From positions 2,666,001 to 2,730,000 of the forward strand of contig NZ_CP139487.1 of the NCBI RefSeq assembly GCF_034259205.1: DNA of 64,000 nucleotides, in the 5' to 3' direction. Both the position numbers and the translations under genes were made by a program. This DNA is from Peredibacter starrii. Its GTDB lineage: Bacteria; Bdellovibrionota; Bacteriovoracia; Bacteriovoracales; Bacteriovoracaceae. Of the stretch, positions 5,122 through 48,215 are shown piece by piece; position 1 is the stretch's first letter, and each line of letters opens with the position of its first letter. Under the pieces are notes generated by a model. That model ran no database searches. It was given only the letters and a program-made list of their open reading frames with translations, and had not been told where the DNA came from.

Positions 5122-5148
5122 CCCTTTTGCATGAAAAGAAATCCTATA

Positions 5149-5856: not shown

Positions 5857-5968
5857 AAGTCCTCCATAAAAGAGTTAACTTCTTCACGTGATCATTCACC
5901 TGACCATAAGCAACCGTAAATGAAGTGGAACTTGAGAACGTTGGACTGAAAGGCCCTTGATGACCGAC

Positions 5969-7135: not shown

Positions 7136-7155
7136 TCGTTAGGAAAAAACCAATA

Positions 7156-7689: not shown

Positions 7690-7798
7690 TGTCTTCCTCC
7701 ATAAATCCAAAAAAGTTGGTAAATTTTTTATCGGGTTCCCAAACCATCCTTGTCACCCGAGAGAAACTTCATCTGGATGCCGCTCATAACAATCCAGA

Positions 7799-7820
7799 CT
7801 AAATATCTCCTAAATAGTAT
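7799..7820. promoter_or_regulatory. possible operator upstream of the Rrf2 gene
   Basis: The heptamer CTAAATA occurs at 7799-7805 and 7810-7816, one helical turn apart, and the segment is flanked by ACTA and TAGT arms. It lies about 110 bp upstream of the regulator start, a position suiting autoregulation. The rest of the 7690-7987 interval shows nothing definite. The assignment is speculative. Confidence 0.25.
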
Positions 7821-7987
7821 GACCTTTTCTTTTTTCCCACGTCAACTTTTAAATCTGAAACAATTCTGTATTTTCCGTAGGGGCATTTGCGAGTGCAAAA
7901 AACGACCATGATATCGGCAGATTAACTCACTCCGAAGGGAGCGCTGGTGTTAATTTGTCTCCGGGCAAAATGTTCCGACTGAGTTAC

Positions 7988-8446: not shown

Positions 8447-8454
8447 GGGTCTAA

Positions 8455-10047: not shown

Positions 10048-10049
10048 AA

Positions 10050-10811: not shown

Positions 10812-10812
10812 T

Positions 10813-17851: not shown

Positions 17852-18805
17852 ATGTTTAAATCTCTCTTTATTTACCTCATGACCCTATCCTTTGCCTATG
17901 CCCAAACAACGGCCGAAGGAATGAAACCTGAAACAAAAACAGAACCGGAAAAGCCGGAAGCTCCAGTTACTTATCCCTTGAATGCCGAAGTTCAAAACTT
18001 CTGCAAAGACCTGGATAAAAAATTCTCTGAATATAAATGGGGTGAGGTTCACTGCGGATATTTTCAATGGATCAATGTACGTAAATCAAAGGCCGGCACT
18101 CCCCTTATCTGGACCACATTTGGGGAAGAGAACACAGCTTCTGCGGCCAATACCACACTTGTTCTTTGTGGCGTTCATGGTGATGAAATCACACCTGTGA
18201 AATTTTGCTGGGACCTCATGCGTGAGCTTAAATCGAACCACACATTCACTGATAAGTTAGTGGTAGTTGCTCCTCTGGTTTCTCCTGACTCATTCTTCAA
18301 AGCAAAACCTACTCGCACTAACGCTGCTGGAGTGGATGTAAACCGAAACTTTCCGACTGCAGATTGGAACAAAGACGCTTTGAAACGTTGGAAAGAGAAT
18401 TACAAAAGAGACAAGCGTAAGTATCCAGGTCCAAGGGCCGCGTCTGAGCAGGAAACAATCTTCCAGATGAATCTTATTAAGCGCTATAAGCCAAACAAGA
18501 TCATTACAGTTCATGCACCTCTGACGATCCTCGATTACGATGGTCCGTCACTAAAAGGCAGCGAAGGCCAATCGGCCAAGCAACTTTTGGAACAGATGTC
18601 CCAAAAGTCTCAAGGCTATAAGATTTCAAATTATCCGATTTTTCCTGGAAGCTTAGGAAACTGGGCCGGGAAGGAAAATCGCATCCCGACCTACACTTTG
18701 GAACTGCCGAATACAGTTCCGACTGAGACTGATCGCTTCTGGCAACTCTTTGGAGATGCCGTGCTCTTTGCAATCGAGCACAAGATGAAGCCACCTATCG
18801 ATTAA
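17852..18805 (+). CDS. secreted M14-family zinc carboxypeptidase/amidase (MpaA/AstE-like)
   Basis: 317 residues with a signal peptide (MFKSLFIYLMTLSFAYAQ) and a Pro/Glu-rich linker to about residue 40. Zinc motif HGDE near residue 109 supplies His and Glu, VDVNRNFPT near 166 is the substrate-binding Asn-Arg, HAPL near 213 gives the third zinc ligand, and ELPN near the C-terminus holds the catalytic glutamate. It resembles murein-peptide amidase MpaA and succinylglutamate desuccinylase. Export suggests a role on envelope or prey peptides. Start codon lies 12 bp from the divergent ATP-grasp start, with no clear ribosome-binding site. Shares a TTAA stop overlap with the next gene. Confidence 0.85.
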   Translation: MFKSLFIYLMTLSFAYAQTTAEGMKPETKTEPEKPEAPVTYPLNAEVQNFCKDLDKKFSEYKWGEVHCGYFQWINVRKSKAGTPLIWTTFGEENTASAANTTLVLCGVHGDEITPVKFCWDLMRELKSNHTFTDKLVVVAPLVSPDSFFKAKPTRTNAAGVDVNRNFPTADWNKDALKRWKENYKRDKRKYPGPRAASEQETIFQMNLIKRYKPNKIITVHAPLTILDYDGPSLKGSEGQSAKQLLEQMSQKSQGYKISNYPIFPGSLGNWAGKENRIPTYTLELPNTVPTETDRFWQLFGDAVLFAIEHKMKPPID

Positions 18806-21234
18806 GCGTTTGCTTTTGGTGGCTCTGGAAGTTTCTTCACAACCAATGCTGGCACAATGATCAGAACCGCACCAATGAGGTACGCGTGAACCGATCCAAA
18901 TTTCCAATACACGAGTGAAGCATAGATTGGGCCAATCACTCGTCCTAAAGAACCGAGTGAACGGAAAATACCAAGACTTTGTCCCTGCATGTTCTGTGGC
19001 GTATAGAACGACACTAAGCTTGTGAGACACGGGATAATCATCGCCGAACCAAGGGCCAGGAAGAAAAGACCCGCATAAAGCATCCACGCCGCTTGAGCGT
19101 AAGCAAGAAGGATTAGACCTGGAACAATGGCAATAAGACCATTGAAGCTCATCTTTCTCTCGCCCACTTGGTGAGCTTTACGACGAACATATCCGCCTTG
19201 AACCATACCAATCACAAAACCGATGAAGATGAACATATAAGCGTTATCCATCGACGTGTAACCCAGACGCTCAACTGCAAGGAACGTCAGCGTAAACTCC
19301 ATACCAGAGAAAGCTGTGATGAAGAGGAAGTAAGCAAAATTCGTTAAGTTCACACCCGGAAACGGAAGTGGCTTCATAAGCTTAATTGGATTGATACTTC
19401 TCTCAAGATGTCTCTTAGAGCCTTCCTTTAAAGTTTCCGGGAAAGATTTCAGAATCGTGAAGAAGTTAATAAAGCTCAGACCCGCTGCCAGAGTAGCTGC
19501 TGCCGAGAATGGGTTCACACCAAATGCTTCCCACTCAGGGTGATGAAGAATTGGGTTATAAAGAGAAAGAATACCACCCAATGCCGGACCAAAAACAAAT
19601 CCTAGAGCGAAAGCAATACCAATTGCTGCCATCCCTTTAGAGCGGTTTTTCTCGTCTGTCACATCACTTACAACCGCAGAAGCAATCGACATGTTCCCTG
19701 ACATGAGTCCGCCCACGATACGAGCAACGATCAACAACGTGAATGAGCCCGAAAAAATCCACAACACATAACTCAGGAACAATCCGAAGACTGAAATCAG
19801 AAGTACCGGACGACGGCCAATTCTATCTGAGATCGAGCCCCACATAGGTGCTGCCACAAATTGAAGTAATGAATAAAGAGCACCAAGAAGACCACCAAAA
19901 AGAACAATCGTGCTCATCTGAGGTGTGCCATCTGCAGTCACTGATATAGACTGAATATTAGAGATAAGATTCATCATTCCTGAAAGGAAGAAGTTGTCCT
20001 TATCCACTTCAAGATAATACTTCGCCATGGCCGGGAACATTGGGAAGATAATTGAGAATCCTACCAGATCCATGAACATAGTAAGGAACATGAGTTTTAA
20101 AATTTTCTTCGAGCTATCAGGTAGTTTCGAAGGAGCTTCTTTTGCTTGTTCAGTGATCACTGCTTTATACCTTTCTTTTACATCGATTTTATAAAATAAT
20201 TCGCTACGCTCTTTTGAAGAGCCATTGGCATATACGTTGATAAAGTGAGCGTAGTCATTGATCCATTCTGGATCAGCATTTAAGCAAGGAATGTGAACCA
20301 GAGTTCCGCCGGCATCTTTGACTTCATGAGCGAGCTCAGTTCCGATCTCATCTGTTGTTTCTAAACAGTCCACCACGAAACTTGGGCAATACACCCCGAT
20401 CTTCTTAGAACCGTTTTCAACTTTTTTCACCACTGTGGCATCAGTGTAAGGCCCAAGCCACACTTCTGAACCAAAGCGCGACTGGAAAGTCATCGAAATA
20501 GGAATCGGAGACTGTAACTGATTTTTAATCAGTTCGAATGTCTCTAAACAGTGAAGAAGATAAATATCTTTTTTATCCAGAACACGACGAAGCGGAATAC
20601 CGTGAAACGAAATCACAAGTTCCTGCATATCAGGATTGACCTGTAGAGACTCACGAATCTTTCTCACCGAGTGATCAATGAAAGCTTTTGAAGTGTGATA
20701 AGAATTCACAATCGTGAAAGTCGGAAGGTTCACACGCTTTTTAAAGTCTCCGCCTAAAGCATCCACTACCGAAGCAATGGTACTCTCCGCATACTGAGGG
20801 AACTGTGGCAGCACTAAAACTTTCTGTGCACGCTCATGAATATCTTCTTTTTCCCACTCATCGATGACATCCGAGGCCCTAGGGCTTGCCAGAAGAAAGG
20901 CATGGTTAATTTCAAGATTTTCGTCCAGTTTCGGACGCAAAGAATCCGCCACTTTTATCGTGTTCGTGATCAGCGGGAAGCCCTCTGCCGTATGAATGCG
21001 GGCATAAGCTTCGGCCGAACGACGAGGCCTAAAAGGGAGAATAAAAAGATTTAATATGATTTTCCAAACAAGAGGATGGGCGTCCACTACTCTAGGATCA
21101 GCTAGAAATTCGCGTAGAAATTCACGGACATCCGAGACTTTCGTACTCTTAGGAGAACCCAATTGACCAAGGATCACTTTGATTTTTTCTGCCATATGCT
21201 TCTTTGTGTTGAAAGAGTCCTCCCTTTTTGTCAT
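18802..21234 (-). CDS. ferrochelatase-MFS transporter fusion
   Basis: 810 residues. Residues about 14-365 are a ferrochelatase: ILGQLGSPKS, the signature ISFHGIPLR with catalytic His near 209, and CPSFVVDCLETTDE with the conserved Glu near 291. Residues about 385-805 are a 12-helix DHA1-type major facilitator transporter with motif A GSISDRIGRRPVLL and a central loop. The frame is continuous, with no stop or frameshift at the junction (PDSSKKILKLMFLT). Ferrochelatase inserts iron into protoporphyrin IX; a fused exporter could carry haem, porphyrin or a related compound. A second Met (residue 14, 21195) is an alternative start; neither has a good ribosome-binding site. Confidence 0.9.
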   Translation of the reverse strand: MTKREDSFNTKKHMAEKIKVILGQLGSPKSTKVSDVREFLREFLADPRVVDAHPLVWKIILNLFILPFRPRRSAEAYARIHTAEGFPLITNTIKVADSLRPKLDENLEINHAFLLASPRASDVIDEWEKEDIHERAQKVLVLPQFPQYAESTIASVVDALGGDFKKRVNLPTFTIVNSYHTSKAFIDHSVRKIRESLQVNPDMQELVISFHGIPLRRVLDKKDIYLLHCLETFELIKNQLQSPIPISMTFQSRFGSEVWLGPYTDATVVKKVENGSKKIGVYCPSFVVDCLETTDEIGTELAHEVKDAGGTLVHIPCLNADPEWINDYAHFINVYANGSSKERSELFYKIDVKERYKAVITEQAKEAPSKLPDSSKKILKLMFLTMFMDLVGFSIIFPMFPAMAKYYLEVDKDNFFLSGMMNLISNIQSISVTADGTPQMSTIVLFGGLLGALYSLLQFVAAPMWGSISDRIGRRPVLLISVFGLFLSYVLWIFSGSFTLLIVARIVGGLMSGNMSIASAVVSDVTDEKNRSKGMAAIGIAFALGFVFGPALGGILSLYNPILHHPEWEAFGVNPFSAAATLAAGLSFINFFTILKSFPETLKEGSKRHLERSINPIKLMKPLPFPGVNLTNFAYFLFITAFSGMEFTLTFLAVERLGYTSMDNAYMFIFIGFVIGMVQGGYVRRKAHQVGERKMSFNGLIAIVPGLILLAYAQAAWMLYAGLFFLALGSAMIIPCLTSLVSFYTPQNMQGQSLGIFRSLGSLGRVIGPIYASLVYWKFGSVHAYLIGAVLIIVPALVVKKLPEPPKANA

Positions 21235-21999: not shown

Positions 22000-22785
22000 C
22001 TATTCTTTCACACAAGTAGCTGTTCCATCCGCATTTATCGATTGGATAAAAAAACCGGCCGAGCAGCTATAAGTAAACGCCTGACAGGCCTGAGTTCCAT
22101 CTGCATTAATCCCACGACTATACTGCCCCGGTGGACATGTTTGATTCGACAGAGCGAGATTCTCCATTCTACGACAAGTTCCCGCAGTACAGATATCCGA
22201 TCCACTTACATTATTTCCGGCAACCACATGACCTCTCGAAGTCAAACCAACTGTGGTTAGTTCTCCTGTCATGACATCGCCATTTTTGAATACAAACTGA
22301 TCTTCTTCTGCCTGACAGTTAGTGATAGGGCCTGTTTGAGAACTCGCATACACTTTCAAAGGAACAGCAAAAGAAGCATCTTTCACGGCCGCCTTCGATC
22401 TTAATTTCCTAATTGAGACCACCAAATCAACCACTCTCGCTCCGTTACCCAAGGACTGATTTTTATCAACGGTTCTCATTCCCGTAATTTCAACCAGGTC
22501 ATGAGCGTACTTTTTCCCCGCCTCATAAATGGCCTGGTTAGAACTATTTTTGACAGACGGAATAACGCTACCTACAGAGGCACCCGTGAAAGTAAGAGCA
22601 CAGGCCGACTTGTCATACAATAAACTTGAGATTGTCCTCTTAAGCTCCAAAACTTCAAACTTCGTCTCGAAAGTCGAACGACTTTGATTCTGTTGTTCAG
22701 ATAGATTCATGATCACAACCGCACCAGCACCAAGAGCACCGGCGAACATTAAAAATTGAACGAGAGAAAAACCTTTCTTATTCAT
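22000..22785 (-). CDS. minor-pilin-like protein with fibre-type C-terminal module (third of three)
   Basis: 261 residues from the ATG at 22785, which overlaps the upstream stop as TAATG. Prepilin leader MNKKG followed by FSLVQFLMFAGALGAG: cleavage after Gly5, but the usual Glu at mature position 5 is Gln. A long helix leads into a region with SACALTFTG. The second half carries GDVMTGELTT, the fibre-type MTG motif, and two copies of a Cys module (CPPGQYSRGINADGTQAC and CSAGFFIQSINADGTATC). It would be processed by PilD and incorporated into, or at the tip of, a type IV pilus or pseudopilus. Last gene of the pilin trio. Confidence 0.82.
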   Translation of the reverse strand: MNKKGFSLVQFLMFAGALGAGAVVIMNLSEQQNQSRSTFETKFEVLELKRTISSLLYDKSACALTFTGASVGSVIPSVKNSSNQAIYEAGKKYAHDLVEITGMRTVDKNQSLGNGARVVDLVVSIRKLRSKAAVKDASFAVPLKVYASSQTGPITNCQAEEDQFVFKNGDVMTGELTTVGLTSRGHVVAGNNVSGSDICTAGTCRRMENLALSNQTCPPGQYSRGINADGTQACQAFTYSCSAGFFIQSINADGTATCVKE

Positions 22786-23588
22786 TAGGGCCCCAAACTT
22801 CCGCAAACAACTGCGCCACTTGATGTAATGGCCTGAATGGCCTGATTTGCACCACATGAAAATTGTAAATCCACACAATCTAATGTTCCATCAGCTCTTA
22901 CACCTCGAGAAATTTGATTGGCACCACAGAGCTGATTATTCAGAGCAAGTTCTGAGATGGCACGACAAACTGAACCAGTACAAAATCTTGCTGCTAGAAC
23001 GTTTAATGTTGCGACAACACCAGTAGTTGAAACAAGACTTGGAGTTGTTAAAGGTCCGGTCATTTCATCACCAGACTTAAGAACAAACTTATCACTATTC
23101 ACACGGCAGCTTGTAACCAATCCTGCCGGATTAAGATTCACCTTCAAAGGAACAAGAATAGGTGCATAGTGATTACGGTCTTTCTCTTTAGACTTTTTGA
23201 AATCAACAGAGAGAACCACATTGGGAGTTCCATCAGGATTTGGATCTCCGAGAATGAGTCTCATGCTTTGGACTTTTACATTGGAAGTTCCGTTCTTCGC
23301 CAGATCAAAAACCGTCTTTCCTCCATTGGGAAATGCGTTTTTAATTTCAGTGACGGGATCTCCAATTCTCTTACCTGAGAATGTGTTACTACAGGCCTTT
23401 TCTTCAAAAAGAAATGTCGTGACGAGCCTTCTCATTTCAAGAGTTTCAAATCGCGCATCATTAGAAACCTGATTTTGATGAAATTGAGAGCTAAGGTTCA
23501 TGGACAAAACTAAGAGTCCGCCCATACCTGCGACCACCACCATGAGTTCAACTAATGAAAAACCATGTTTGTTATTTTTCATCTTCAC
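22785..23588 (-). CDS. minor-pilin-like protein with fibre-type C-terminal module (second of three)
   Basis: 267 residues. Canonical prepilin signal HGFSLVELMVVVAGMGG with Glu5 of the mature form, then a long N-terminal helix and a FEEKACSNTFSG region. Middle part: GDEMTGPLTTPSLVS, as in phage-fibre proteins. C-terminal: CGANQISRGVRADGTLDC and CGANQAIQAITSSGAVVC, two copies of the Cys-x-x-x-Gln module. Start overlaps the upstream pilin stop by 4 bp (ATGA), and its own stop overlaps the next start, so the three are translationally coupled. Confidence 0.82.
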   Translation of the reverse strand: MKMKNNKHGFSLVELMVVVAGMGGLLVLSMNLSSQFHQNQVSNDARFETLEMRRLVTTFLFEEKACSNTFSGKRIGDPVTEIKNAFPNGGKTVFDLAKNGTSNVKVQSMRLILGDPNPDGTPNVVLSVDFKKSKEKDRNHYAPILVPLKVNLNPAGLVTSCRVNSDKFVLKSGDEMTGPLTTPSLVSTTGVVATLNVLAARFCTGSVCRAISELALNNQLCGANQISRGVRADGTLDCVDLQFSCGANQAIQAITSSGAVVCGSLGP

Positions 23589-24661
23589 TGCCAGGCACCT
23601 TTAAAGCAAAGTTTTGTAATCGTAACTGTAGGGCCCTGGCATTTTTCCATACAACGATAATAGGCTCCACTTCCATCACCTAGCGCAAGGAACCCATTGG
23701 ACTTACACTTGTACCCCCAGCCGTTTCCCCTCTCATCATACTTGCCCCATTTACACTCACCAGGAGTGCTTTGAGAACAAGATCCCGTCTGTCCATGGTC
23801 CCTGCCCGGAACCGTACAAGTTTGTCCACTCTGGGTGAAGGCCATCGCCGGACATCCCGGAGGAATAAGATCCACACAAGTGACCGCTCCATTAGCTGCA
23901 ATGGCACGAATCGCTTGTCCCGTAGGACAAGAATAAGTGATGGTTCTACAGCGAGGAGTTCCCTGCACGCCATCGAGATACTGATTCGGTGGGCAGCCCT
24001 GATTTGATAACACGAAGTCATTCATGTTTTTACAGTTGGCACCAGCACTTGTGCAGATCGCCTGACCCTGAATTGCACCAGAAGCAGTCACATCATTTGT
24101 AACGTTCAATTGAGTCGTCGTCAGAGCTCCCGTCATCACATCCCCTGCTCGTTGAACAAACTGATCATCGTAAGACAAACAATCAACGATGGGCCCGGCC
24201 GCACTACTTGCCGTCACTTTAAGAGGAATCGCTATAGCGAGGCCTGATCTATTAGTGATCGCTTTGGCCTTTTGAAAAGTAACAAGGAGATCAACCTGAC
24301 GAGTGGTCGCCGTCAGTGGTCTGTTCTTATCAATCGTTCGGAGAGAACTAATAATTAAATTATTCGAGCCATACTTCTGGCCCTTAACGAAGATAGATTC
24401 ATTGGCCGGATTTTTTAGCGCATTTACTTCTGCACCAATGGCCGATCCACCCAAGGTATTCGTACATGCGACCTTATCGTAGAAAAGATTCGTGATGATT
24501 TGTTTTAGTTCCTGACTCGAAAACTTGGCCTCAACATTGGCCTGGTTCTTCGCTTGTTGATTGGTTAAATTCATCAAACCTAGAGCGACAACACCGATAC
24601 CGGCAGCACCTAAGAGAACTTCCACAAATGAAAGTCCACGTTCGTTTCTAAAAAATTTCAT
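23585..24661 (-). CDS. minor-pilin-like protein with fibre-type module and extra Cys-rich tail (first of three)
   Basis: 358 residues, the longest of the trio. Prepilin-type start NERGLSFVEVLLGAAGIG (cleavage after Gly9, mature Glu5 present). Then DKVACTNTLGG, GDVMTGALTTTQLNVTN, two Cys modules (CPPNQYLDGVQGTPRC, CPTGQAIRAIAANGAVTC), and an additional 85-residue Cys-rich C-terminus (MAFTQSGQTCTVPGRDHGQ, GWGYKCKSNG, CFKGAW) likely forming several disulfides, a plausible tip domain. It lies 107 bp downstream of an RCC1 gene on the same strand. Confidence 0.82.
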   Translation of the reverse strand: MKFFRNERGLSFVEVLLGAAGIGVVALGLMNLTNQQAKNQANVEAKFSSQELKQIITNLFYDKVACTNTLGGSAIGAEVNALKNPANESIFVKGQKYGSNNLIISSLRTIDKNRPLTATTRQVDLLVTFQKAKAITNRSGLAIAIPLKVTASSAAGPIVDCLSYDDQFVQRAGDVMTGALTTTQLNVTNDVTASGAIQGQAICTSAGANCKNMNDFVLSNQGCPPNQYLDGVQGTPRCRTITYSCPTGQAIRAIAANGAVTCVDLIPPGCPAMAFTQSGQTCTVPGRDHGQTGSCSQSTPGECKWGKYDERGNGWGYKCKSNGFLALGDGSGAYYRCMEKCQGPTVTITKLCFKGAWQ

Positions 24662-24768: not shown

Positions 24769-27700
24769 TTATCGCCGAATTCCAACGGCAAAGCCGCTAT
24801 TGCCTGCAGTGATGTCGGTCCAGTTTGTTCCTGAAGCAAGTTGCACTGGCGAAGTTTGGTTAACTCCAAATCCAGGCAGATTTCCCGCGGCATATCCCCA
24901 TCCCCACAGTGTTCCATCACTCTTAATCCCATAAGAAGTAGAATCATGGATTGAAATTTTTTTCCATGAACCTGCAATTTGAGTTGGCGATGTTTTCTGG
25001 GTGACAGTTCCGTCGCCTAATTGACCTGAGCCATTTAAACCCCACATCCAGAGCGTGCCATCAGTTTTTATCGCCGCTGAAACCTGGCTTCCGAGCTCAA
25101 CTGATTCCACATCCGTTAGAGCCGTTAATTGAATCGGCGAAGATTTTCCTGAAGTAGTGGTGTCACCCAACTGTCCATTCCCATTTGCTCCCCATACCCA
25201 GAGAGTTCCATCGGTTTTAATCGCAACAGTGTGAGAGTTCCCGCAAGCGACTTTTGACCAGTCAGTCAGAGCACCGACTTGAACCGGTGAAAGCATGGTA
25301 GTGGTATTCCCAATTCCAAGCTGACCGCTGGAATTTTGTCCCCAGGCCCAAAGAGTTCCATCATTTTTTATGGCCATGGAAAAAGAACCGCCAGCAGCAG
25401 CTTTGGCCCAAGTATTGAGAGATGATATTTGAGTCGGTGAGGTAAAACTTTTTCCAAGCTGATAACTTTCATTAAATCCCCAGCCATGCAAGGTTCCGTC
25501 TGATTTAATCGCCGATGCGAATAAATAACCTCTGGCGATCTTGGTCCACGTGCCAGGAACTTGTACCGGGGAAGATCTATTGGTTTGAGTTCCGTCACCT
25601 AATTGTCCACCATTGTTTGAACCCCATGTCCAAAGAGATCCATCGGACTTAAGTCCAGAAGAAGAATAATAACCGGTAGCAATCGCCGACCAAGTAGTAT
25701 CGGCGCCAATCTGGACGGGGGAACTGGTATAACCAGATGTAGTTGAGGCAATGGATCCCATAGAATTGCCGGCCCATCCCCAGAGTGTACCGTTAGTTTT
25801 AATTCCTAAAACATGATATTGCCCTGAACTTAGCTGAGACCAGTCGGAAGTATGGGTTGCTTGTGCTGGAGAAAAATAGTGAAAACCAATTTGACCTGTA
25901 TCGTTTAATCCAAATCCCCAGAGAGTTCCGTTGGTTTTGATGGCAAGTGTGCGAGCTCCGCCGGCATCTAATTCAGACCAATCAGTATCTGAGCCCACTT
26001 GAGTTGGAGTTGAAACATTGGTGAAATTTCCAATTCCCAATTGCCCGGATTGATTATTTCCCCATGACCAAAGTGTCCCATTAGTTTTAAGGGCGCTGGT
26101 GTGATTTAGCCCCACTGCCACAGTTTTCCAATTGGTATCACTTCCCACGATCATGGGAGAACTATAGTTCGCACCATTTCCAAGACCAGTAATTCCCCAA
26201 ATGCCGTAGCCCCAGGCCCAGAGTGTATTATCGTTTTTGATTCCAAATGAAGTTGAAGAGCCAGCATAAACACTAGACCAGTTAGAGTCAGTCCCCAATT
26301 GGGTCAGAGAGCTTTTGTTAGCGGTAGTAGCGTCACCCAATTGTCCGAAGGTATTTGCACCACAAACCCAAACTGTTCCATCAGATTTTCGAGCAAGAGT
26401 ATAATTGGCCCCGCCCGCAATTTGTGTCCAGGAAAATCCCGCCCCAATTTGGGCCAGAGAAGATCTTCCCGCGTTGAAGGCGCCATCACCAAGTTGACCT
26501 TCATTATTTCTTCCGACGGTCCACAAGGTATTATCTGACTTAATCAACACAGCGTGATTGTCACCAAGTCCGGCCTCAATCCATGTATCAGAACCCACTT
26601 GAACCGGAGAGGATCTATTGTTTGTATCTCCAAGACCTAATTGGCCCGAGGTATTTTGTCCCCATGCCCAGAGTGTGCCATCAGTCTTAATCGCCATGCT
26701 GAGAAGATGACCGGTATAAACTTTTGACCAATTGGTAAGTGCACCGATTTGAATCGGTGAGTATCTTGTGCTGGCACTCGCATTACCAAGCACCCCACTT
26801 GAACCAGATCCCCACCCCCACAAGGTTCCATTACCTTTCACAGCAATAGTGTGACTTGTACCTGTAGAAATTTTGGCCCAGTCAGAATCAAGACCAACCC
26901 GATTGGGAGAATAATAAAACTTCCCAATCTGGTTATAATTATTATTTCCAAAGAACCACAGCGATCCATCATTCTTAATTCCAAAACTAAAATTGGAAGT
27001 AGACCCTGTCTCGGCCTTTATCCAATTAGTATCAGAACCAATTTGAACAGGTGAAGATTTTGCAACTGCTGTTCCGTCCCCTGTCTGACCTTCATCATTC
27101 TGTCCCCATCCCCACAAGGTTCCGTCAGTCTTAACCGCTAAGGAGTGACCATATCCCGCATATACCCTGGCCCAATTAGTTCCAGAACCAATTTGAATGG
27201 GAGAATTCACATTGGCGATGGCATTATTACCAACTTGCCCATAGGGATTCCATCCCCATGCCCAGAGTGTGCCGTCAGTCTTAACCGCAAGAGAGTGACC
27301 ATTACCAGCTGAAACGGAGGCCCAATTGGTGAGAGAACCAATTTGAACAGGACTAAAATTTTGACTGATATTTCCTAATCCTAAATGACCGCTGTCATTT
27401 TTCCCCCATCCCCAGAGAGAGCCATCAACTTTAATCGCAAGTACATGCGCACTTCCATTCGCAATCTCTTTCCAGTTATTGGCAGAGGTCATTTGGGTAG
27501 GAGTAAAAAAATGAATGCCTAATTCACTGTTAGCGTTATTGCCCCAACCCCACAACGTACCATCGGATTTTACTCCTAATGAATGTGTGTTGTTGGCCGC
27601 AACCATCGTCCAAGTATTATCAGAACCAATTTGAGTTGGAACTGATGTACTTGCAGCAGTGCCTGTTCCAACACGTCCGTTAGCATTATCTCCCCAACCC

Positions 27701-28005
27701 CAAATCGTCCCGTCCGTTTTAAGAACTACAGTATGCATGTGTCCGGATGCGGCCTGGACCCAATCGGTAGAGCTACCAAGTTTAGTCACGGGCTGCACGC
27801 CTCCAGTGACACCAAGGCCTAATTGATAAAAACTATTTGTCCCCCACACGAACATTCCGTAGAGATTGGTATTTTGAGTTTTCCAAAATCCGATCATCGA
27901 ACGAAAAGCAAAAGCATCTTCAAAGGGATTAAGCACAGAAGTAGCAATGGCGGCTTTGCCAGCATTTGAAATGAGTTTTAAGAAGTCGCGACGGCTCTGA
28001 GTCAT
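24769..28005 (-). CDS. Tat-exported RCC1 beta-propeller protein, 21 blades (copy A)
   Basis: 1078 residues from the ATG at 28005 (MTQSRRDFLKL); an in-frame ATG at 28020 adds five residues. The twin-arginine signal SRRDFLK is followed by a hydrophobic stretch and NPFEDAFA, then AFRSMIGFWK. The rest is a chain of RCC1-type repeats of about 50 residues, each with a KTDGTLWxWGxN...GQLG...SPVQIGSxTNW core and an xGxxHSxAI start. I count 21 blades, fitting three seven-bladed propellers. Blades 3, 7, 14 and 17 have a shortened loop (such as ELGIHFFTPTQ) and blade 21 is somewhat short. No C-terminal anchor. Presumably periplasmic or surface-bound; ligand unknown. Confidence 0.9.
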   Translation of the reverse strand: MTQSRRDFLKLISNAGKAAIATSVLNPFEDAFAFRSMIGFWKTQNTNLYGMFVWGTNSFYQLGLGVTGGVQPVTKLGSSTDWVQAASGHMHTVVLKTDGTIWGWGDNANGRVGTGTAASTSVPTQIGSDNTWTMVAANNTHSLGVKSDGTLWGWGNNANSELGIHFFTPTQMTSANNWKEIANGSAHVLAIKVDGSLWGWGKNDSGHLGLGNISQNFSPVQIGSLTNWASVSAGNGHSLAVKTDGTLWAWGWNPYGQVGNNAIANVNSPIQIGSGTNWARVYAGYGHSLAVKTDGTLWGWGQNDEGQTGDGTAVAKSSPVQIGSDTNWIKAETGSTSNFSFGIKNDGSLWFFGNNNYNQIGKFYYSPNRVGLDSDWAKISTGTSHTIAVKGNGTLWGWGSGSSGVLGNASASTRYSPIQIGALTNWSKVYTGHLLSMAIKTDGTLWAWGQNTSGQLGLGDTNNRSSPVQVGSDTWIEAGLGDNHAVLIKSDNTLWTVGRNNEGQLGDGAFNAGRSSLAQIGAGFSWTQIAGGANYTLARKSDGTVWVCGANTFGQLGDATTANKSSLTQLGTDSNWSSVYAGSSTSFGIKNDNTLWAWGYGIWGITGLGNGANYSSPMIVGSDTNWKTVAVGLNHTSALKTNGTLWSWGNNQSGQLGIGNFTNVSTPTQVGSDTDWSELDAGGARTLAIKTNGTLWGFGLNDTGQIGFHYFSPAQATHTSDWSQLSSGQYHVLGIKTNGTLWGWAGNSMGSIASTTSGYTSSPVQIGADTTWSAIATGYYSSSGLKSDGSLWTWGSNNGGQLGDGTQTNRSSPVQVPGTWTKIARGYLFASAIKSDGTLHGWGFNESYQLGKSFTSPTQISSLNTWAKAAAGGSFSMAIKNDGTLWAWGQNSSGQLGIGNTTTMLSPVQVGALTDWSKVACGNSHTVAIKTDGTLWVWGANGNGQLGDTTTSGKSSPIQLTALTDVESVELGSQVSAAIKTDGTLWMWGLNGSGQLGDGTVTQKTSPTQIAGSWKKISIHDSTSYGIKSDGTLWGWGYAAGNLPGFGVNQTSPVQLASGTNWTDITAGNSGFAVGIRR

Positions 28006-28162
28006 TACAATCCAAGACATCCGTATTTTTACAGATGCACCTAGATTAATAATAACTTAAATACTCGTACCTGCAACAAGATGGAGCATTTTTCTATAGG
28101 TAAACATAAGGCAAGAAAGGCCAACGTGAGGATATTCTTCATCCCCGCCTCTTCCTGTCTGG

Positions 28163-31547: not shown

Positions 31548-34500
31548 CTACTTCGCTTTTTGTATCAGTAGCTTTTCGATTCGCTCAAGACGGGCCTTAA
31601 TTTCTGCATTTTCTTGCTTGAGCTTTTGGTTTTCAGCCTTGATCACTTCTATTTCCTCACGATCGGCCTTGGAATCAATACTGCGATTAATTCCTTTCAC
31701 CGCCTCAATGAGTGGTGCCACCAAATGATCATAGGCAACTGACTTCATTCCTGTCTTGGGATCAGTAATCACAACTTCCGGATAAATTTTCTCTACTTCT
31801 TGAGCAATCACACCCACCTGGTGTTTATCTCCGAATTTTGCTTTATCCTTGTAATCATACTCCACCCCTTGAAGCATCAGAATCTTATCAAGAGCATTGT
31901 CTAATGGACGGATATTCTCTTTTAGACGTCTATCTGATGAAGCAGTACAACCAGCACTGGTACAAACTTGAGTTCCGGCAATACGAAGGCGAGTGGTCGA
32001 ATTGATATCACCCGCTACATCCAGTTTATATGTCGGCGAGGAATCGCCAATTCCCATATTACCAACTCGATCAACACGGACGTACTCAGTAGTGTAATTT
32101 GAAACGGAAAGAATTGCGCGGTTACTAGTCAACGCGGCACCAGCGCGGGCCTGCAGATTTATGGCAGGAGCCGTTCCGGAATCAACTCCTGAAACGTCTC
32201 CAATCATTCCCACAGATCCAATGGTACTATTGGTAAGTCCGTACATCACAGGACTGATAGTTCCATCAGCTCCAGTATTATTATTGATTGCCATGTATCC
32301 GGATGCATCCGAGACACTAAAGCGGGCCATGACTTCGCCTGCACTGGCTGCTGCCTCTTTCACCACTTGAAATTTTGCAGTCGGAGCAGTTATCCCAATC
32401 CCCACATTCCCACCCTGATCAATGGTCATTCTCGGAGTATTGGTGTTCGTTCCATTTGGGATAGTCGAAAACATCAGATTTGCACCCGAGGCAGAAGCCG
32501 TATGATTTTCTGTCGCATAAGAATACACAGTCGCACCCTGTGCCCCGGTATGGTTCCGAAAAGTTAATAATCCCATTGTGTCCCCGCTCTGAACATAAGT
32601 TGGGGCAGAGGATGTTCCACGGCTTCTACGAAGAATGAAATGAGGCGAATAGTTTGTTTCTGATGAAGTTCTAGATTCGATAACATTATAAGATTCAGTT
32701 GACTCAGATTTTATATCTCCTACCACATGTAATCTTTCTTCAGGACTGTTTGTTCCAATACCAACATTTCCTTCTGAGCTGATTGTTAATCGGGCAACTG
32801 GTGTGCTAGTGCCATTCGCAACTGTGGTGAATTGTAGATTCGTTCCAAAAGCACTGGCAGTGTAATTCTCAGCAGCCACGGCGGTAATTGAAGCAGTTGA
32901 ATTGGAAGTATAGGCACCGCCAGATGTCCAACCTCTAAACTGAATCCCGCCAAGATTTTCGCCAGTAAGGATTTGACTTTCGCTACCAGGATCTCCGTTT
33001 GCACGCCTTAATACCATTCTGGACTGATCATCAAAAGAATCGAAAGCGGAAAGAACATTTGTTGAAGACTGGCCATTCCAATCTTTAGAAACATGAACTG
33101 GAGTAAGAGGAGAGGTCGTTCCAACACCAACATTACCTGTTGAACTGATGGAGAGCTCTCCGTCATTGATGCTCGTCGGTTTACCGGCAATTCCTAATTC
33201 AAATGAAACTCCGGTTTCATCATAAACTCTTCCCGAAGCAGAGATAGCTCCTCGCACATCCAGGGTCTGAAGCGGACTGGAAGTTCCAATCCCTACTTTC
33301 CCGGCGTTGTAATAAACATCCAAAACGTTTTTACTCCACACTCCTGAATTATCAAAAGCTGCATCATTGGCAATAATCTGCCCTTCTAATTTACCAAGGG
33401 CTTCAATCAAAGTGTCCGTTGCTGCCAGCGGAAGTGCACTTCCCACTCCATATCCACTTAACAGAGCATTTCTTACTCGAGAGTCTAAGAAATAAAGATT
33501 GCTTCCTTCTGGCACGACCGTTGTATTAAGCGTTTGCCAGGATTTATCTCCCCGCCAGTATTGGGCCGTAGTCCCGGCCGAGATTGTTGGTTCTTTACCT
33601 GCCAAAGCGGCAGTAAGCCCCGCCACTTTTGCTTCAGGAATTACTCCGTCACTTAAATTTAGATTTGAGTATGTGATGGTTGAACTCGCGATATCAGAAC
33701 CCGTGACTGTACCATCAACGATCTTACTTGAATCCACCGTGTTTGCTGAGACCACACCCGAGGCGCCAAGTGCTTGCCAGGAGGTGCCGTTATAAAACAT
33801 CAGAGCATTGGTCGAGGAGTTATAATAAAGCTGTCCTGGGATTCCTGAACCAGGATTTGCGCCCAGTTGCGGGAATTGAATACCTTCTGAGCTAGCAAAA
33901 TTCACATCATCTACAGTCAGAGAATCATCTACGACGTGACCAGAGCTGACCGAATCAGCGGTCAGGGCCCCGCCACCTCCGCCTCCACTTGCTCCTCCAC
34001 TGCCAACTCTAAAACCCGCCAATGAAGAATATGTGACATTCGCTGCCCCTGAGTTCCATTGCCAGACGTAAGCATAAACCTTATCTCCAGCATTCAAATA
34101 TGATGATCCCGAAGCATTTAGGTAGAGTTGACTTCCGGTCGAGAGCTGATGGAACGCACTTCCGATAATGGCCCCTGTATTTGCCTTGATCGTAAGTCCA
34201 CCATAAGTGTTGATTGAATCCCAATATACAATTGCTGAGAAATGATAAAATCCAGAACGAGGAACTGTATACATTCCAGTCGCAGGATCAAATGCATTCT
34301 CAGTATCAATGCTTTCAACATTCGGAAGGATGGTCGTAGAAGTACCACCATTGGCCGCTGATTGATTGGTCGACCGGGTGGCACGAAAATATCCACCTTT
34401 TGAATCACTTGCAAATATCCATTGGGTTCCATCGAATATAAAAAGTGCATTCTCTGTTGTATCGTAGACCATAAGACCTACAGTTGCGGCCAAACCATTT

Positions 34501-35564
34501 CTCTGAGCTGTGGTCATTCGCGGAGGTAGAAAACCTTTGGTAGTCGATTGAAGATCAAGAATCGCTGAACTCGCTGGCGCTGTGCCACCAATGGTGACTG
34601 AACCGGTTGAGAAAAATAAATTTCCTAAACTCTCTCCCCACTGCTTATCCGCACAGGCAAAAGAACCTAGGCCATTGGTCATGAGAATCTGATTCACACC
34701 ACAACTTGAACTAATGCCACTTAAGTGTGTATCCAGTAATCCCTGGGCTTTCACTCCAATAGTTAAACCTGACGTGAATAATGTAGATCCATCGGCCACA
34801 AGTGTAGTGTCGGTATCTACATCCATCACACAACTAAACGCTGTGCCATTGGATTTTAACACTTGCCCCATGCCACAAGTGGGCAATGCACTCTTAGCAA
34901 AACTTTGAACAGACGGGTCCGTCTCAACCGATGTGGCTAGTTTTCCGGAGCCATCAAGCTGCGGAATCTTACCTGCACCTGTTCCTACATCAACTGACAA
35001 GGTCCCGGTGTTGGTAATCGTGCCACCCAGAAGTCCTGTGCCTGCGGCTACGGATGTTACCGTTCCACCAGTGGCACCAGTGATGGGTTTTGGTTCCCAT
35101 CTTGAACCTGTCCAGGTGAGGACTTCATTATTGTTGGCATTCAATTTAGAAAGCCCGTGGGCCACTTGCGCACTTGGCACTGAATAGAGGGCCTGAAACG
35201 AATAGACCTTATCCGGCGTTGGAGTCGTGTTCGTAATGCGAATCACCGCCTCTTGCCCCGTCGGTACACTCGCTAAAACTTCATTTAGCGAAGTTCCACA
35301 TACCATTTCAAGCTTGGCGTGAAACACACCATTGGTAAGCGAAACTCCAGCAAGATCTTGCGAACAAAGAATGGCACTCGTGTTACCCGAATAAGCGAGT
35401 TCAAATTTTAAATCAACTGGCCCCACCACCGGTGAGCCATTTGCGTTAACCAGACGGCCGGAATAGCTTAATGAATCGCTAGCAATAACAATCTCAGCAG
35501 TAGTCAGACCAACTGCTAACAAAGCCATCATAACGACTGATTTAAGCCTTCCAAATATTGCCAT
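31548..35564 (-). CDS. giant secreted fibre protein with C1q-like and endosialidase-chaperone (S74) domains
   Basis: 1338 residues, GGAG ribosome-binding site. After a signal peptide comes the N-terminal domain LSYSGRLVNANGSPVVGPV shared with the protein at 41530-45888. Then beta-helix/tail-fibre-like repeats (GNVGIGTSSPLQTLDVRG, NVGIGTNSPEERLHV), Cys modules (CGMGQVLKSNGTAFSC, CGVNQILMTNG), and near residues 390-520 a C1q/TNF-like jelly roll (YTVPRSGFYHFSAIVYW, GDKVYAYVW). The end is an intramolecular chaperone: SSDRRLKENIRPL, GVIAQEVEKIYPEVV, then a coiled coil (NQKLKQENAEIKARLERIEKL). Such chaperones trimerise a fibre and cleave themselves at the Ser-Asp site. This layout resembles Bdellovibrio mosaic adhesive trimers, implicated in prey contact. 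Confidence 0.85.
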   Translation of the reverse strand: MAIFGRLKSVVMMALLAVGLTTAEIVIASDSLSYSGRLVNANGSPVVGPVDLKFELAYSGNTSAILCSQDLAGVSLTNGVFHAKLEMVCGTSLNEVLASVPTGQEAVIRITNTTPTPDKVYSFQALYSVPSAQVAHGLSKLNANNNEVLTWTGSRWEPKPITGATGGTVTSVAAGTGLLGGTITNTGTLSVDVGTGAGKIPQLDGSGKLATSVETDPSVQSFAKSALPTCGMGQVLKSNGTAFSCVMDVDTDTTLVADGSTLFTSGLTIGVKAQGLLDTHLSGISSSCGVNQILMTNGLGSFACADKQWGESLGNLFFSTGSVTIGGTAPASSAILDLQSTTKGFLPPRMTTAQRNGLAATVGLMVYDTTENALFIFDGTQWIFASDSKGGYFRATRSTNQSAANGGTSTTILPNVESIDTENAFDPATGMYTVPRSGFYHFSAIVYWDSINTYGGLTIKANTGAIIGSAFHQLSTGSQLYLNASGSSYLNAGDKVYAYVWQWNSGAANVTYSSLAGFRVGSGGASGGGGGGALTADSVSSGHVVDDSLTVDDVNFASSEGIQFPQLGANPGSGIPGQLYYNSSTNALMFYNGTSWQALGASGVVSANTVDSSKIVDGTVTGSDIASSTITYSNLNLSDGVIPEAKVAGLTAALAGKEPTISAGTTAQYWRGDKSWQTLNTTVVPEGSNLYFLDSRVRNALLSGYGVGSALPLAATDTLIEALGKLEGQIIANDAAFDNSGVWSKNVLDVYYNAGKVGIGTSSPLQTLDVRGAISASGRVYDETGVSFELGIAGKPTSINDGELSISSTGNVGVGTTSPLTPVHVSKDWNGQSSTNVLSAFDSFDDQSRMVLRRANGDPGSESQILTGENLGGIQFRGWTSGGAYTSNSTASITAVAAENYTASAFGTNLQFTTVANGTSTPVARLTISSEGNVGIGTNSPEERLHVVGDIKSESTESYNVIESRTSSETNYSPHFILRRSRGTSSAPTYVQSGDTMGLLTFRNHTGAQGATVYSYATENHTASASGANLMFSTIPNGTNTNTPRMTIDQGGNVGIGITAPTAKFQVVKEAAASAGEVMARFSVSDASGYMAINNNTGADGTISPVMYGLTNSTIGSVGMIGDVSGVDSGTAPAINLQARAGAALTSNRAILSVSNYTTEYVRVDRVGNMGIGDSSPTYKLDVAGDINSTTRLRIAGTQVCTSAGCTASSDRRLKENIRPLDNALDKILMLQGVEYDYKDKAKFGDKHQVGVIAQEVEKIYPEVVITDPKTGMKSVAYDHLVAPLIEAVKGINRSIDSKADREEIEVIKAENQKLKQENAEIKARLERIEKLLIQKAK

Positions 35565-38011: not shown

Positions 38012-38194
38012 AAAATCGTCCTTAGTACTATGTGAGAGGATAGACTTCAACGTATGCAAATAATTATTTATGAAATAAAAAAAATGAAAAATGAATTTAT
38101 TAGAAAAATGAGAAATGTTTGCGAATACAAGACATTAATTCGTGAGACTATAGTCAGTCGCGATTTACAATTTTGAATGTCTGTTGTTTTAGAT

Positions 38195-41529: not shown

Positions 41530-44500
41530 TTAGAACCCATCAATCCAAGAAATATACACAAAGCTTCCATATTTCACGAAGCTGTAGATGACATGTCCGG
41601 AGGTAGGAGTGGCGTTAGCAGGACGATACTTAAATGTTGAGCTACCATCAGAGAACACACACGAACCTGAATGAGAATTGTTCTGAACAGCGATAGTGTA
41701 ACTCGTTCCTTCAACCATGTTGGTTAGTGTCCAGGTAGCGCCAGAACAACCTGTGGCCGTATATTGATAGTTACCCGCAGCCATATTGAATGAAGTCGGA
41801 GTTGTGTCGTTGACAGCAACTGAAGCAATGGAACCATTCACCTGAAGGGTCGAGTTCGGAGAGCTAATTCCAATTCCGACTTTACCATCAGATTTGACAA
41901 CTAATCTTTCCAATCCATCTGTACCAAGAATGAAGTCATTGGCCTTGACTCCGAAATATTCAAGTGCACCTGAACTTAATAGATTCTCAAATAAAATATA
42001 ACCCCGATCGTTGGAATTATTGTCCATCTTGAAAATGTAATCAGTTCCTCCTCCATTACTTTCCACGGTAAACATTGGTTGCATCACAGAGCCAGAGGCC
42101 TTAACTTGACCCCAGCTATTTACAGAGAGACCTTCACTATCAGAGTCCCCATTGATCCAATTTGATCCTAGAATTATGTTTTGAGTGGCAGTATGGTTAC
42201 CCAGATTATCTGAGCCCCCGGCCGTTTGCCAGGTCGCAAGGCCTGAAGCATCCGAAGTTAAAACCTTACCTGCACCCGGAGTACCGCCAGTGATTTTCAC
42301 CTGGCCCGCGACTTCGAGTTTTGCACCTGGAGTAGTTGTTCCGATGCCCACATTTCCAGTAGCATCGATTCGCATACGTTCATTACCAGCTGTAGAGAAT
42401 CCAATCGTCGAAGCTGCCGGACGATAAAAACCTGTATTTGCATTATCTAAAGTAATTGCCGGTGCTGCGGCCGTATTAGTGTAAGAAAATCGCCATACAG
42501 AACCACCAATACCGTACATAGATGAATTATCCATTCCAAAACGAGCAGTTCCATTATGACTGAACAATATGTTTCCAGCTAAATTATAAAATCCTGTTGC
42601 AGGGGAACTACTAAAGCTAATAGATGGAGAGGCCGCACTTCCATCGGCTGCCCTAAATGCTCCAGTCATTGCAACTGTTCCGTCTGATTTAAAATCACCA
42701 CCTGCTGCTGGAGTCTGCCAAGTCGCTAGCCCTGAAGCATCCGAAGTTAAAACTTTTCCTGAGCCCGGAGAACCTCCGGTGATTTTCACTTGGCCTGCAA
42801 CTTCAAGTTTGGCGCCTGGAGCAGTAGTGCCAATACCAACATCTCCGGCATTTGTGATACGCATTCTTTCTGAGGTTAAAATTGCACCATCAGGTGTGGT
42901 ATGAAATGTAAGCCGTCCTGGCATATCGTTTAATCCTGGAGTTCCATCAACCTCAGCAGATATACGGGCCGAAATTCTATCACCGAATGAATCATGGCCC
43001 CGGAAGTCAATCATTCCCAAATAATCATTAATGCTGACAATCCCGTTGGAGCGACTTTTTGTAAAGTGGATGCTACTCGAATTTACAGTTGAGGAATTGT
43101 TTTCGTGTACGTTAGTTCCATTCAAGATATGCAATTTCCCGTAAGGGTTTGAAGTCCCAATCCCCACATTCCCGGTGTTGTTGTTGTGGATATTGGTTCC
43201 GCTAGTCGACCAAACTGAAGCAACTCCAGTAATCGCTGTATCTACATACTGCTTTGTCGCCGCATGAAGATTGGCCGTTGGATTGCCCGCCAAAGTAATT
43301 GCACCTGTCATGGTTCCACCAGCGAGTGGAAGCTTAGTCGTATCTGTCGCACTATCAGCAACACAACGGTAACCAAGGGCCACATCACTTGTTATCACCT
43401 CACCAGGTAAACAAGTCATCCGCACTAACTTCGCAATCGGAATAGTTCCATCAGCGAGATTGAGTTTACCGTAAGTAATAGTTGAGTTAGCAATATCAGC
43501 ATTAACAATTGTGCCATCTAAAATTTTTGCAGACGTCACAGCATCGTTGGCAATTGTGGCGGCGACTGAACCAGTTCCAGAAGCGGTCACATCCCCTGTA
43601 AGAGCTGAAATTGTTCCACCTGAACCAGTGGCATTGATGGTAATTCCACCGGCCGAGTTTGTGATTGAAACTCCCGTACCAGCAGTTAATGTTGCTGCAA
43701 CCGGAGTCGCACCAGTTGATCCGATTAATAATTGTCCATTTGTGAGGGCCGGAGCTTCAACAATCGTTGTTGCAGTCGACACCATGATTCTATTTCCGAC
43801 AAGTGAAGCGACATTGAATCCATCAGCAACGTCTTTGAAATCATCATAATCAGCTTTACTAATAAGACCCGCAGTGACACCCGCAGCACTGGCCATCGGA
43901 ATATTTAATGTATGTACGCCGGTCGCAGGAACGGTCACCCAATTTGGGGCCGTGCCGGTCGTACCAGGGGCGGCAAAGGAGTGAGAACCAACAGTAGAAC
44001 CGTTAAAATTTGTAATCCCAGATCCACTCACACCAAAGGCGAGCCAGTTAGAGCCATTACAATATTCTACGTTACCACCGTTATAACGAATGGTACCTGC
44101 TTTGGCGGCCACACAAGCGACAGCATCAGCACCAATTTGCACACCGCCAATGACATCCAGTTTTGAACGTGGAGTATTCGTCCCAATCCCCACATTCCCT
44201 GAAGTGTTCCAAATACCTGTGCCCGGAAAATTCGCTCCACCCGAAAACACGACAGGTGTTGAGGTTGTTGACCCACGTGCAGTCACAGTTGCTAAAGTAT
44301 CGGCTTCAGCAGATAAAAAATTCGGACTCCATGGAACCCATGCCGAACCATTATATTGAAGAAGATCACCAGTAGTTCCTGGCACCATTCCAATCACACC
44401 TGTGCCAGAGTTGTAACTAATAGGAGAAGCACCAGAAATCGCTCCGCGAGCGAGTGTATTGGTAAAATACTTATTAGTCGCACCCTCCGGAACCGCATCT

Positions 44501-45888
44501 GTATTTAATGTCTGCCAGGTCTTGTCCCCTCTCCAAAACTGAGCAGTTGTTCCGCCCGCAATGGTAGGTTCTTTCCCCGCAAGATCAGACGTGAGGTTGG
44601 CAATTTTTGACTGAGCGATGTTGGCCGTCGCAGACACGTCCGCATCAACAATTGAGCCATCAGTTATGTCAGAAGAACCAACAGATGAATTTCCCCAAGA
44701 TAAAATTCCGGTTCCATCCGTCTTAAGAACTTGTCCATTCGTACCGGGCGTTGCAGGCAGAGTAAAAGTCACGCCAGCAGTTGTCAGTGGAGCACGAAGT
44801 TCTACGAAATTTGATCCTGAATCTTGTAGGCGCAGACTGCCAGTAAGTGCGATGTTGCCCACAACATCGAGTTTTTCATTTGGAGTTCCCGTTCCAATAC
44901 CAACATTGCCAGTATTAAAATATATATGAGGAACCGCATCGATCCACTGAGAGGAATTCACTCCACCCAATTGATCATCTACATATTGCTTGTTCACAAT
45001 TTGATCTGGGAGTAACGGTGTAGGAACCCCGTTAATCGTACCCACGACCAAGGTCCCTCCGGTTTTATCCAACTTATTGTTTGAAAGATCTGAGGCCTGG
45101 CCTTGAAGTTTTTCGATCGCCGTAAGAATTGAATCTGTCGCTGTCACAACAGATGATGAGGCAGCACTAAAACCATTTAATATAGTATTGAGAACGTCAC
45201 TCCCGAAATCACCCCAAGTGTTATCACCTTTTAAGTAATTTGTTCCATCACGTGTACCGGCGAGTTTCGATGGATCAATCCCTCCCGCAAGATGAGCATT
45301 AGTAATTCCACCTGGGGCCACAGCGAGTGTACCAGTTTCAGTAATTGGACCACCTGTTAGACTTGAATCAGTATTAATTTGGGTAACTGAACCACTTCCT
45401 GTTCCGGCATCACCCGGCACCCAACGTTTAAGAGTATCGTTCCACTTCAAAACTTGATCTGGAAGTGCACCCATCTGAGGCAAATTTTTTGCATAATTAG
45501 ACATGTAAGAAGAAGGAACCGCATACATGTTTTGAATCGCATACGTTCTGCTATTGGTTGTGTCCGTCACTTGATAAGTCATGTTGTGGCCCGCAGGCAC
45601 GGACTCCATCAAGTTTTGAAGAGAAGTACCACTACAATCGGGCGGATCAAATTTTAATTTAACGTGGAAGACACCATTTGAAAGAGGAACTCCCGTAATT
45701 GATTTCGTACAAAGGGTTGTCCCCGGATCATCAGTGGAACTTAGATCAAATCTTAAATTCACCGGACCGGTTACCGGCGATCCATTGGTGTTCACAAGGC
45801 GTCCGGAATAGCTCAATGTATCTAAAGCATATGCACGAAGAGACAGAGCACTGAGAAAAGTGGAGATCAGAATTAATTTTTTCACCAT
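41530..45888 (-). CDS. giant secreted fibre protein without an S74 chaperone
   Basis: 1452 residues, AAGG before the ATG. Signal peptide (KKLILISTFLSALSLRAYA), then LSYSGRLVNTNGSPVTGPV, the N-terminal domain shared with the other fibre. The long middle is tail-fibre-like: GGTTAQFWRGDKTWQTLNT, GGTMTGAITLAGNPTANLH followed by ATKQYVD, repeated NVGIGTTTPGAKLEVAGQ, and one Cys module (CLPGEVITSDVALGYRC). The C-terminus has no SDRRLKxN chaperone; instead a small beta domain (TPTSFNMAAGNYQY, SGSCVFSDGSSTFKYRP), like phage-fibre tip domains. Probably a trimeric surface adhesin. It heads an operon with RCC1 copy C. Confidence 0.83.
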   Translation of the reverse strand: MVKKLILISTFLSALSLRAYALDTLSYSGRLVNTNGSPVTGPVNLRFDLSSTDDPGTTLCTKSITGVPLSNGVFHVKLKFDPPDCSGTSLQNLMESVPAGHNMTYQVTDTTNSRTYAIQNMYAVPSSYMSNYAKNLPQMGALPDQVLKWNDTLKRWVPGDAGTGSGSVTQINTDSSLTGGPITETGTLAVAPGGITNAHLAGGIDPSKLAGTRDGTNYLKGDNTWGDFGSDVLNTILNGFSAASSSVVTATDSILTAIEKLQGQASDLSNNKLDKTGGTLVVGTINGVPTPLLPDQIVNKQYVDDQLGGVNSSQWIDAVPHIYFNTGNVGIGTGTPNEKLDVVGNIALTGSLRLQDSGSNFVELRAPLTTAGVTFTLPATPGTNGQVLKTDGTGILSWGNSSVGSSDITDGSIVDADVSATANIAQSKIANLTSDLAGKEPTIAGGTTAQFWRGDKTWQTLNTDAVPEGATNKYFTNTLARGAISGASPISYNSGTGVIGMVPGTTGDLLQYNGSAWVPWSPNFLSAEADTLATVTARGSTTSTPVVFSGGANFPGTGIWNTSGNVGIGTNTPRSKLDVIGGVQIGADAVACVAAKAGTIRYNGGNVEYCNGSNWLAFGVSGSGITNFNGSTVGSHSFAAPGTTGTAPNWVTVPATGVHTLNIPMASAAGVTAGLISKADYDDFKDVADGFNVASLVGNRIMVSTATTIVEAPALTNGQLLIGSTGATPVAATLTAGTGVSITNSAGGITINATGSGGTISALTGDVTASGTGSVAATIANDAVTSAKILDGTIVNADIANSTITYGKLNLADGTIPIAKLVRMTCLPGEVITSDVALGYRCVADSATDTTKLPLAGGTMTGAITLAGNPTANLHAATKQYVDTAITGVASVWSTSGTNIHNNNTGNVGIGTSNPYGKLHILNGTNVHENNSSTVNSSSIHFTKSRSNGIVSINDYLGMIDFRGHDSFGDRISARISAEVDGTPGLNDMPGRLTFHTTPDGAILTSERMRITNAGDVGIGTTAPGAKLEVAGQVKITGGSPGSGKVLTSDASGLATWQTPAAGGDFKSDGTVAMTGAFRAADGSAASPSISFSSSPATGFYNLAGNILFSHNGTARFGMDNSSMYGIGGSVWRFSYTNTAAAPAITLDNANTGFYRPAASTIGFSTAGNERMRIDATGNVGIGTTTPGAKLEVAGQVKITGGTPGAGKVLTSDASGLATWQTAGGSDNLGNHTATQNIILGSNWINGDSDSEGLSVNSWGQVKASGSVMQPMFTVESNGGGTDYIFKMDNNSNDRGYILFENLLSSGALEYFGVKANDFILGTDGLERLVVKSDGKVGIGISSPNSTLQVNGSIASVAVNDTTPTSFNMAAGNYQYTATGCSGATWTLTNMVEGTSYTIAVQNNSHSGSCVFSDGSSTFKYRPANATPTSGHVIYSFVKYGSFVYISWIDGF

Positions 45889-48214: not shown

Positions 48215-48215
48215 T

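Follow-up and report, generated by a model that had tools for sequence, protein, structure and literature searches.

Three overlapping genes on the minus strand, A, B and C, probably encode modular minor type IV pilins that enter a pilus and whose fibre-type C-termini trimerise into a spike at the pilus tip. They lie in a 64,000-nucleotide stretch of the Peredibacter starrii genome (the window). This genome is a single contig of 4.15 Mb and encodes numerous large fibre proteins as well as parts of the type IV pilus and type II secretion kind. A prepilin peptidase is present in the host (PF06750 match at 401534).

Gene layout and prepilin leaders

Genes A and B overlap by 4 bases and genes B and C by 1 base, so the three look like a single operon (Table 1). 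Class III prepilin leaders, which an earlier note on this DNA had assigned to all three products, can be read directly in each of them, with Glu at position +5 in A and B and Gln in C. Gene C is listed among the open reading frames with a start at 22878, which precedes the real one: its leader, MNKKG^F, starts at 22785. Only B among the three passes the Pfam N_methyl cut-off (21.6 bits, cut-off 21.2), and A and C are tied to it by full-length similarity, as the pairwise identity over the full shared length is 42% for A and C, 35% for A and B, and 37% for B and C. The pilin domain, comprising the first 165 residues, contains two invariant cysteines, Cys66 and Cys161, and gene A has an additional Cys-rich tail (residues 264-358) behind its Cys modules. 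A profile of the pilin domain (A4) matches known pilins in the PDB along the N-terminal helices only, and a PDB sequence search with gene A gave no match at E<=1. The S74 domain is absent from A, B and C according to both Pfam and a census of S74 domains in the genome. Bdello_MAT_N gave no match in the three proteins, which start with the prepilin leader.

Table 1. Positions in the window of the pilin genes, their sub-parts and the two fibres
Feature	Position	Strand	Details
Gene A, modular minor prepilin	23585..24661	-	358 aa; leader MKFFRNERG^LSFVE
Gene A, leader and pilin domain, residues 1-165	24167..24661	-	Segment common to all family members
Gene A, fibre-type motif FVQRAGDVMTGALTT	24116..24160	-	Genome pattern census and fibre profile
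Gene A, two Cys modules, C223-C238 and C245-C262	23876..23995	-	
Gene B, modular minor prepilin	22785..23588	-	267 aa; GTG start; leader MKMKNNKHG^FSLVE
Gene B, fibre-type motif FVLKSGDEMTGPLTT	23043..23087	-	Genome pattern census and fibre profile
Gene B, two Cys modules, C221-C238 and C245-C262	22803..22928	-	
Gene C, modular minor prepilin	22000..22785	-	261 aa; ATG at 22785; leader MNKKG^FSLVQ
Gene C, fibre-type motif FVFKNGDVMTGELTT	22252..22296	-	Genome pattern census and fibre profile
Gene C, two Cys modules, C217-C234 and C241-C258	22012..22137	-	
MAT-like fibre, C-terminal S74 chaperone	31548..35564	-	1338 aa; Peptidase_S74 1.5e-20; holds CGMGQVLKSNGTAFSC module
MAT-like fibre without S74	41530..45888	-	1452 aa; MTG site 43304-43320
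VGIGT...EYCNGSNW module of fibre 41530-45888	44032-44193		Recurs in this pilin family

In the AF2 model of C, helices span residues 9-16, 20-56 and 59-66, and four strands lie within residues 98-157. The pLDDT is ~62-90 over residues 41-158, from an alignment of only three sequences, and a pilin-like core is plausible from this model. The model of A is of low confidence, and with the three-sequence input the C-termini of both A and C are without a resolved fold. Foldseek searches with the two models returned no match, to a pilin or to a fibre, at E<=0.001.

The genome contains four secretins, and some family members show weak matches to the GspH, ComGD and ComGE models; both observations would fit pseudopilins that serve type II secretion or competence in place of a type IV pilus. 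However, these matches are far under the cut-offs and limited to the shared N-terminal region, the adjacent genes are unlike secretion genes, and the long fibre stalks of the sister proteins described below fit surface display. We hold a pseudopilin role to be very improbable.

The MTG motif in pilins and fibres

The motif GDxMTGxLTT, which had been reported for all three pilins, is present in them as GDVMTGALTT, GDEMTGPLTT and GDVMTGELTT. Searching the 4.15 Mb for G-[GDE]-x-M-[TS]-G gave 21 matches in the DNA; two that do not code for the motif were removed. The remaining 19 are 15 fibre sites, A, B and C, and one transporter, encoded in the window at 18802-21234 (minus strand). The 810-aa frame of this last gene matches a full ferrochelatase (Pfam 1.1e-77, residues 20-329) and an MFS transporter (2.4e-55, residues 382-769), and its product is predicted to be a fused haem-synthesis enzyme and transporter.

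When a profile was built only from the 15 fibre sites of this genome, A, B and C ranked directly below the fibres, at 13.2, 12.3 and 9.6 bits (E 0.003-0.04 among 796 open reading frames), and scored above all of the 9000 shuffled copies used as the control; the sister prepilin G (L011) ranked next after them. The agreement extends upstream of the motif, as in NYVLKAGDTMSGPL of a fibre and KFVLKSGDEMTGPL of pilin B. The MTG motif of A, B and C is fibre-like, and its occurrence in both pilins and fibres, as the earlier note described, is above chance in both the fibre-only profile and the genome census. Since A, B and C are paralogues, this sharing counts as one independent event, and the direct fibre evidence for the three proteins themselves consists of one motif of 15-24 residues.

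Cys modules and the neighbouring fibres

Each of the three proteins contains two Cys modules, as the earlier note described, although the proposed tandem consensus CxxxQxxxxIxADGTxxC is followed only loosely and not by all six. The proposed kinship of these modules with the Cys modules of the fibres did not hold. A Cys profile built from fibres scored no pilin above shuffled sequences, and a profile built from pilins found no fibre. The Cys modules were rejected as an element linking pilins to fibres after failing these tests both ways, and they are best regarded as an element of the pilin family, present in many relatives. Of the two lines of evidence in the earlier note, the MTG motif stands up to profile comparison with the fibres and the Cys modules do not. 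One relative (L153) has S74 on the same chain as the pilin domain and Cys modules; it connects these modules with a fibre-type architecture, which partly rescues the link to fibres.

Both motifs do exist in the neighbouring fibres, as had been claimed, but in two different ones: the MTG motif in the fibre at 41530-45888 and the Cys motif in that at 31548-35564. Against Bdello_MAT_N, the window fibres reach 17.2 and 13.9 bits, below the cut-off of 60; these weak matches, together with the set of fibres, are the grounds for regarding the genome as Bdellovibrio-like. Four large RCC1-repeat propeller proteins are also encoded on the minus strand among the fibre and pilin genes (24769-28020, 35789-38059, 38280-41513 and 50643-53867), and all four start with RRxFL or RRKFL, which is Tat-like. 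A duplicated gene pair on the plus strand (29925-31335 and 47531-48965) adjoins fibre genes at each copy. In each pair, the gene for a secreted protein bearing the motif GNSGFxIICE precedes one for an HTH regulator with DUF4423 (1.2e-41 in the first copy); these regulators possibly control fibre expression.

The failure of the Cys modules in both directions, together with an MTG match that is short and below 14 bits, would be compatible with a coincidental or convergent MTG motif. The C-termini of A, B and C would then be unrelated Cys-rich adhesin or carrier domains, even though genuine fibre domains do occur on other members of the pilin family. However, the match outranks every shuffled copy, and the motif is nearly restricted to fibres and A, B and C genome-wide. 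Its position after the pilin domain is also that found in two relatives (L051 and L052), in which GDTMTG is followed by a CNG module on one pilin and which bridge A, B and C to the fibre modules. Coincidence is, in our judgement, quite improbable.

Sister pilins with fibre modules and S74 domains

Seven further members of the A/B/C pilin family are found in the same genome. Three overlapping 525-aa prepilins (S1-S3, L009) have a capping-loop stalk and S74, and G combines a leader, an MTG-like stretch and S74, passing the Pfam cut-offs of both N_methyl and Peptidase_S74. A further pilin (L050) also bears S74, F (L010) carries a fibre capping-loop/CNG module, and H (L012) is without a recognised module. 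In the whole genome, 5 of the 19 S74 domains sit on prepilins. The module of the window fibre at 41530 shares 52% identity with pilin F (E=5.5e-8), and the same module is recovered in pilins of relatives down to E ~1e-17, with ranks interleaved with those of fibres. The SDxxxK motif is kept in 29 of 31 pilin S74 domains.

Regarding distribution, homologues of the pilin are present in all 26 same-genus genomes and in 64 of 144 genomes in the phylum sample. Pilin-S74 proteins occur in several genera, with one instance in another family (L211). In viral contigs, query A1 found no relative, and query A2 matched nine stretches in the fibre-stalk/S74 part only. Several other loci show unusual architectures. 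A gene for an S74 fibre that also has an MTG-like stretch (L150 1-2558; G000:C1:1533000-1535557) lies in two overlapping frames of 525 and 382 aa and appears split as if frameshifted. A same-genus locus (L071 3923-7987), next to two divergent pilin genes, encodes a 1354-aa prepilin whose C-terminal part contains ~65 cysteines. Lastly, prepilins of 690-850 aa (L044 3903-6347 and 6579-9131; L045 77-2287 and 5441-7513) contain long runs of 'NTAxGxxAL' repeats, which resemble trimeric autotransporter heads, and then S74.

In a tree of 31 pilin, 26 fibre and 9 phage-contig S74 domains, based on few columns and weak at many of its forks, pilins and fibres are intermixed; the AU test rejects one clade of all pilins (p=0.0004). 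The tree requires 12 changes, compared with 22 in shuffles, and at least 3 are forced by well-supported branches. More than one S74 transfer is well supported by this tree; the exact number is uncertain. The suggestion that adhesin modules moved between fibres and pilins therefore stands for the family, through S74 and the capping-loop/CNG module, and is partly supported for A, B and C, by the MTG motif and not by the Cys modules. On these sequence comparisons, the exchange of modules between pilins and surface fibres has good support, most of it from proteins other than A, B and C.

Three-gene arrays

Arrays were defined as pilins on one strand with gaps of <150 bases. The grouped loci comprise 68 singles, 7 pairs, 14 triples and one array of six, with none of four or five, so that most tandem arrays have three genes; the count is a biased sample, because loci were partly chosen for their tandem look. 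In four of the pairs (L071, L072, L073 and L075) a third pilin is divergently adjacent, and two others (L049 and L056) sit at contig ends. Coordinates inspected by eye in the least fragmented genomes (G000, G027, G073, G032 and G166) likewise give sizes of 1 and 3. A long/short/long triad is seen in eleven genomes, and twice in L210, where six successive pilins (2491-11156) form two such triads back to back. All three genes carry the capping-loop/CNG fibre module in L157 and L205, and all three carry S74 in L009. The +5 residue is altered in many triads, gene C included. S74 proteins form trimers, as do MAT fibres (PMC10769870); thus, the simplest reading is that three products make one trimer, and the array size suggests that A, B and C possibly form one heterotrimer.

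Triads also have a conventional explanation. Tip complexes of three or four minor pilins are common in type IV pili and type II secretion systems, and the GspI-GspJ-GspK pseudopilus tip is a heterotrimer with three different minor pilins per complex (PMC8179133). The recurrence of long/short/long triads in many genera and the lack of Glu at +5 in gene C, as for a topmost subunit, would likewise fit an ordinary minor-pilin priming complex. A, B and C would then be the counterpart of GspI-J-K or PilV-W-X, with Cys-rich tails of their own, C-termini that are not intertwined and an MTG motif that is a functionless loop. However, A, B and C are 35-42% identical across the pilin domain, the MTG motif and the Cys modules, whereas GspI, GspJ and GspK are divergent and, to our knowledge, are not close paralogues and have no fibre modules. 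Moreover, sister triads bear fibre modules or S74 in all three genes, as in L157 and L009. A plain priming complex is an alternative to be taken seriously, but an unlikely one.

Proposed assembly and known systems

For the favoured reading, a tip spike of trimerised fibre-type C-termini, we propose the following assembly. The class III leader would be cleaved, and the N-terminal helix and the disulfide-bearing pilin domain would allow entry into the pilus. Behind the pilin domain, the C-terminal extension begins with the MTG motif, followed by the small Cys modules, a slot that sister pilins fill with elements also found in the fibres: stalks of the capping-loop beta-helix kind, the CNG module and S74 chaperones. 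Three pilins anchored in the inner membrane would trimerise via their fibre-type C-termini; in the S74 members, the chaperone domain would fold the trimer and then cleave itself off. The trimer would prime the pilus and pass out via the secretin, forming a spike at the tip for binding to prey or some other surface. Homotrimers would arise from single-gene members, and an operon of three genes, such as A/B/C, would yield one heterotrimer. A bolder version, which we offer tentatively and with some doubt, is a pilus with a phage-like intertwined heterotrimeric spike that is folded on the membrane before assembly, in which S74 might act as a quality gate on initiation and fibres and retractile pili might share one module pool.

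Modular type IV pilins are known, for example PilB of Streptococcus sanguinis (Raynaud et al. 2021, PMC8179133). As in the A/B/C family, such pilins carry a foreign module behind an N-terminal pilin module and are expected at the tip. The survey in that paper includes the architecture IPR012902-IPR030392 (pilin and S74), labels S74 a predicted peptidase and does not mention Bdellovibrio in its main text. In the pilins described here, by comparison, S74 sits on fibre-type stalks and is kin to the chaperones of MAT fibres, and the genes form triads. The mosaic adhesive trimer (MAT) fibres of Bdellovibrio bacteriovorus (Caulton et al. 2024, PMC10769870) share with the pilin family the capping-loop beta-helix stalks, the exchangeable tips and S74 with SDxxxK. 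However, MAT fibres start with a signal peptide and a beta-rich N-domain of ~130 aa, and the pilins with a prepilin leader and pilin domain instead. The main text of Caulton et al. (PMC10769870) does not contain the word 'pilin', and says of the interplay between pili and fibres only that it 'may also be of interest'.

Two further systems offer precedents. In TcpB and CofB of type IVb pili (PMC9565799), the C-terminal beta-rich domains of a minor pilin trimerise at the pilus tip, although as a homotrimer with an H-type lectin-like fold; similarity to TcpB or CofB was found neither with gene A against the PDB at E<=1 nor with profile A4 against the PDB. The PilV shufflon adhesins of I-complex plasmids (PMC9045228) are minor pilins with exchangeable C-terminal adhesin ends, but exchange there occurs by site-specific inversion at one locus, whereas here the variety lies in dispersed paralogues. 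Among open-licence papers, Raynaud et al. 2021 was the only one found with pilin and S74 together. The modular pilin with S74 is therefore known already. What appears to be new in the literature searched is the kinship of the modules with fibres, the reading as a trimeric spike, and the triads.

Work on prey recognition and pull-in by predatory bacteria has treated type IV pili and MAT fibres separately. Should both draw on a common pool of modules, the exchange of tips between fibres and retractile pili could be a route by which prey range evolves. The catalogued but unexplained architecture of pilin and S74 would be reinterpreted as a trimerisation device and not a peptidase, and this reading predicts heterotrimeric pilus tips.
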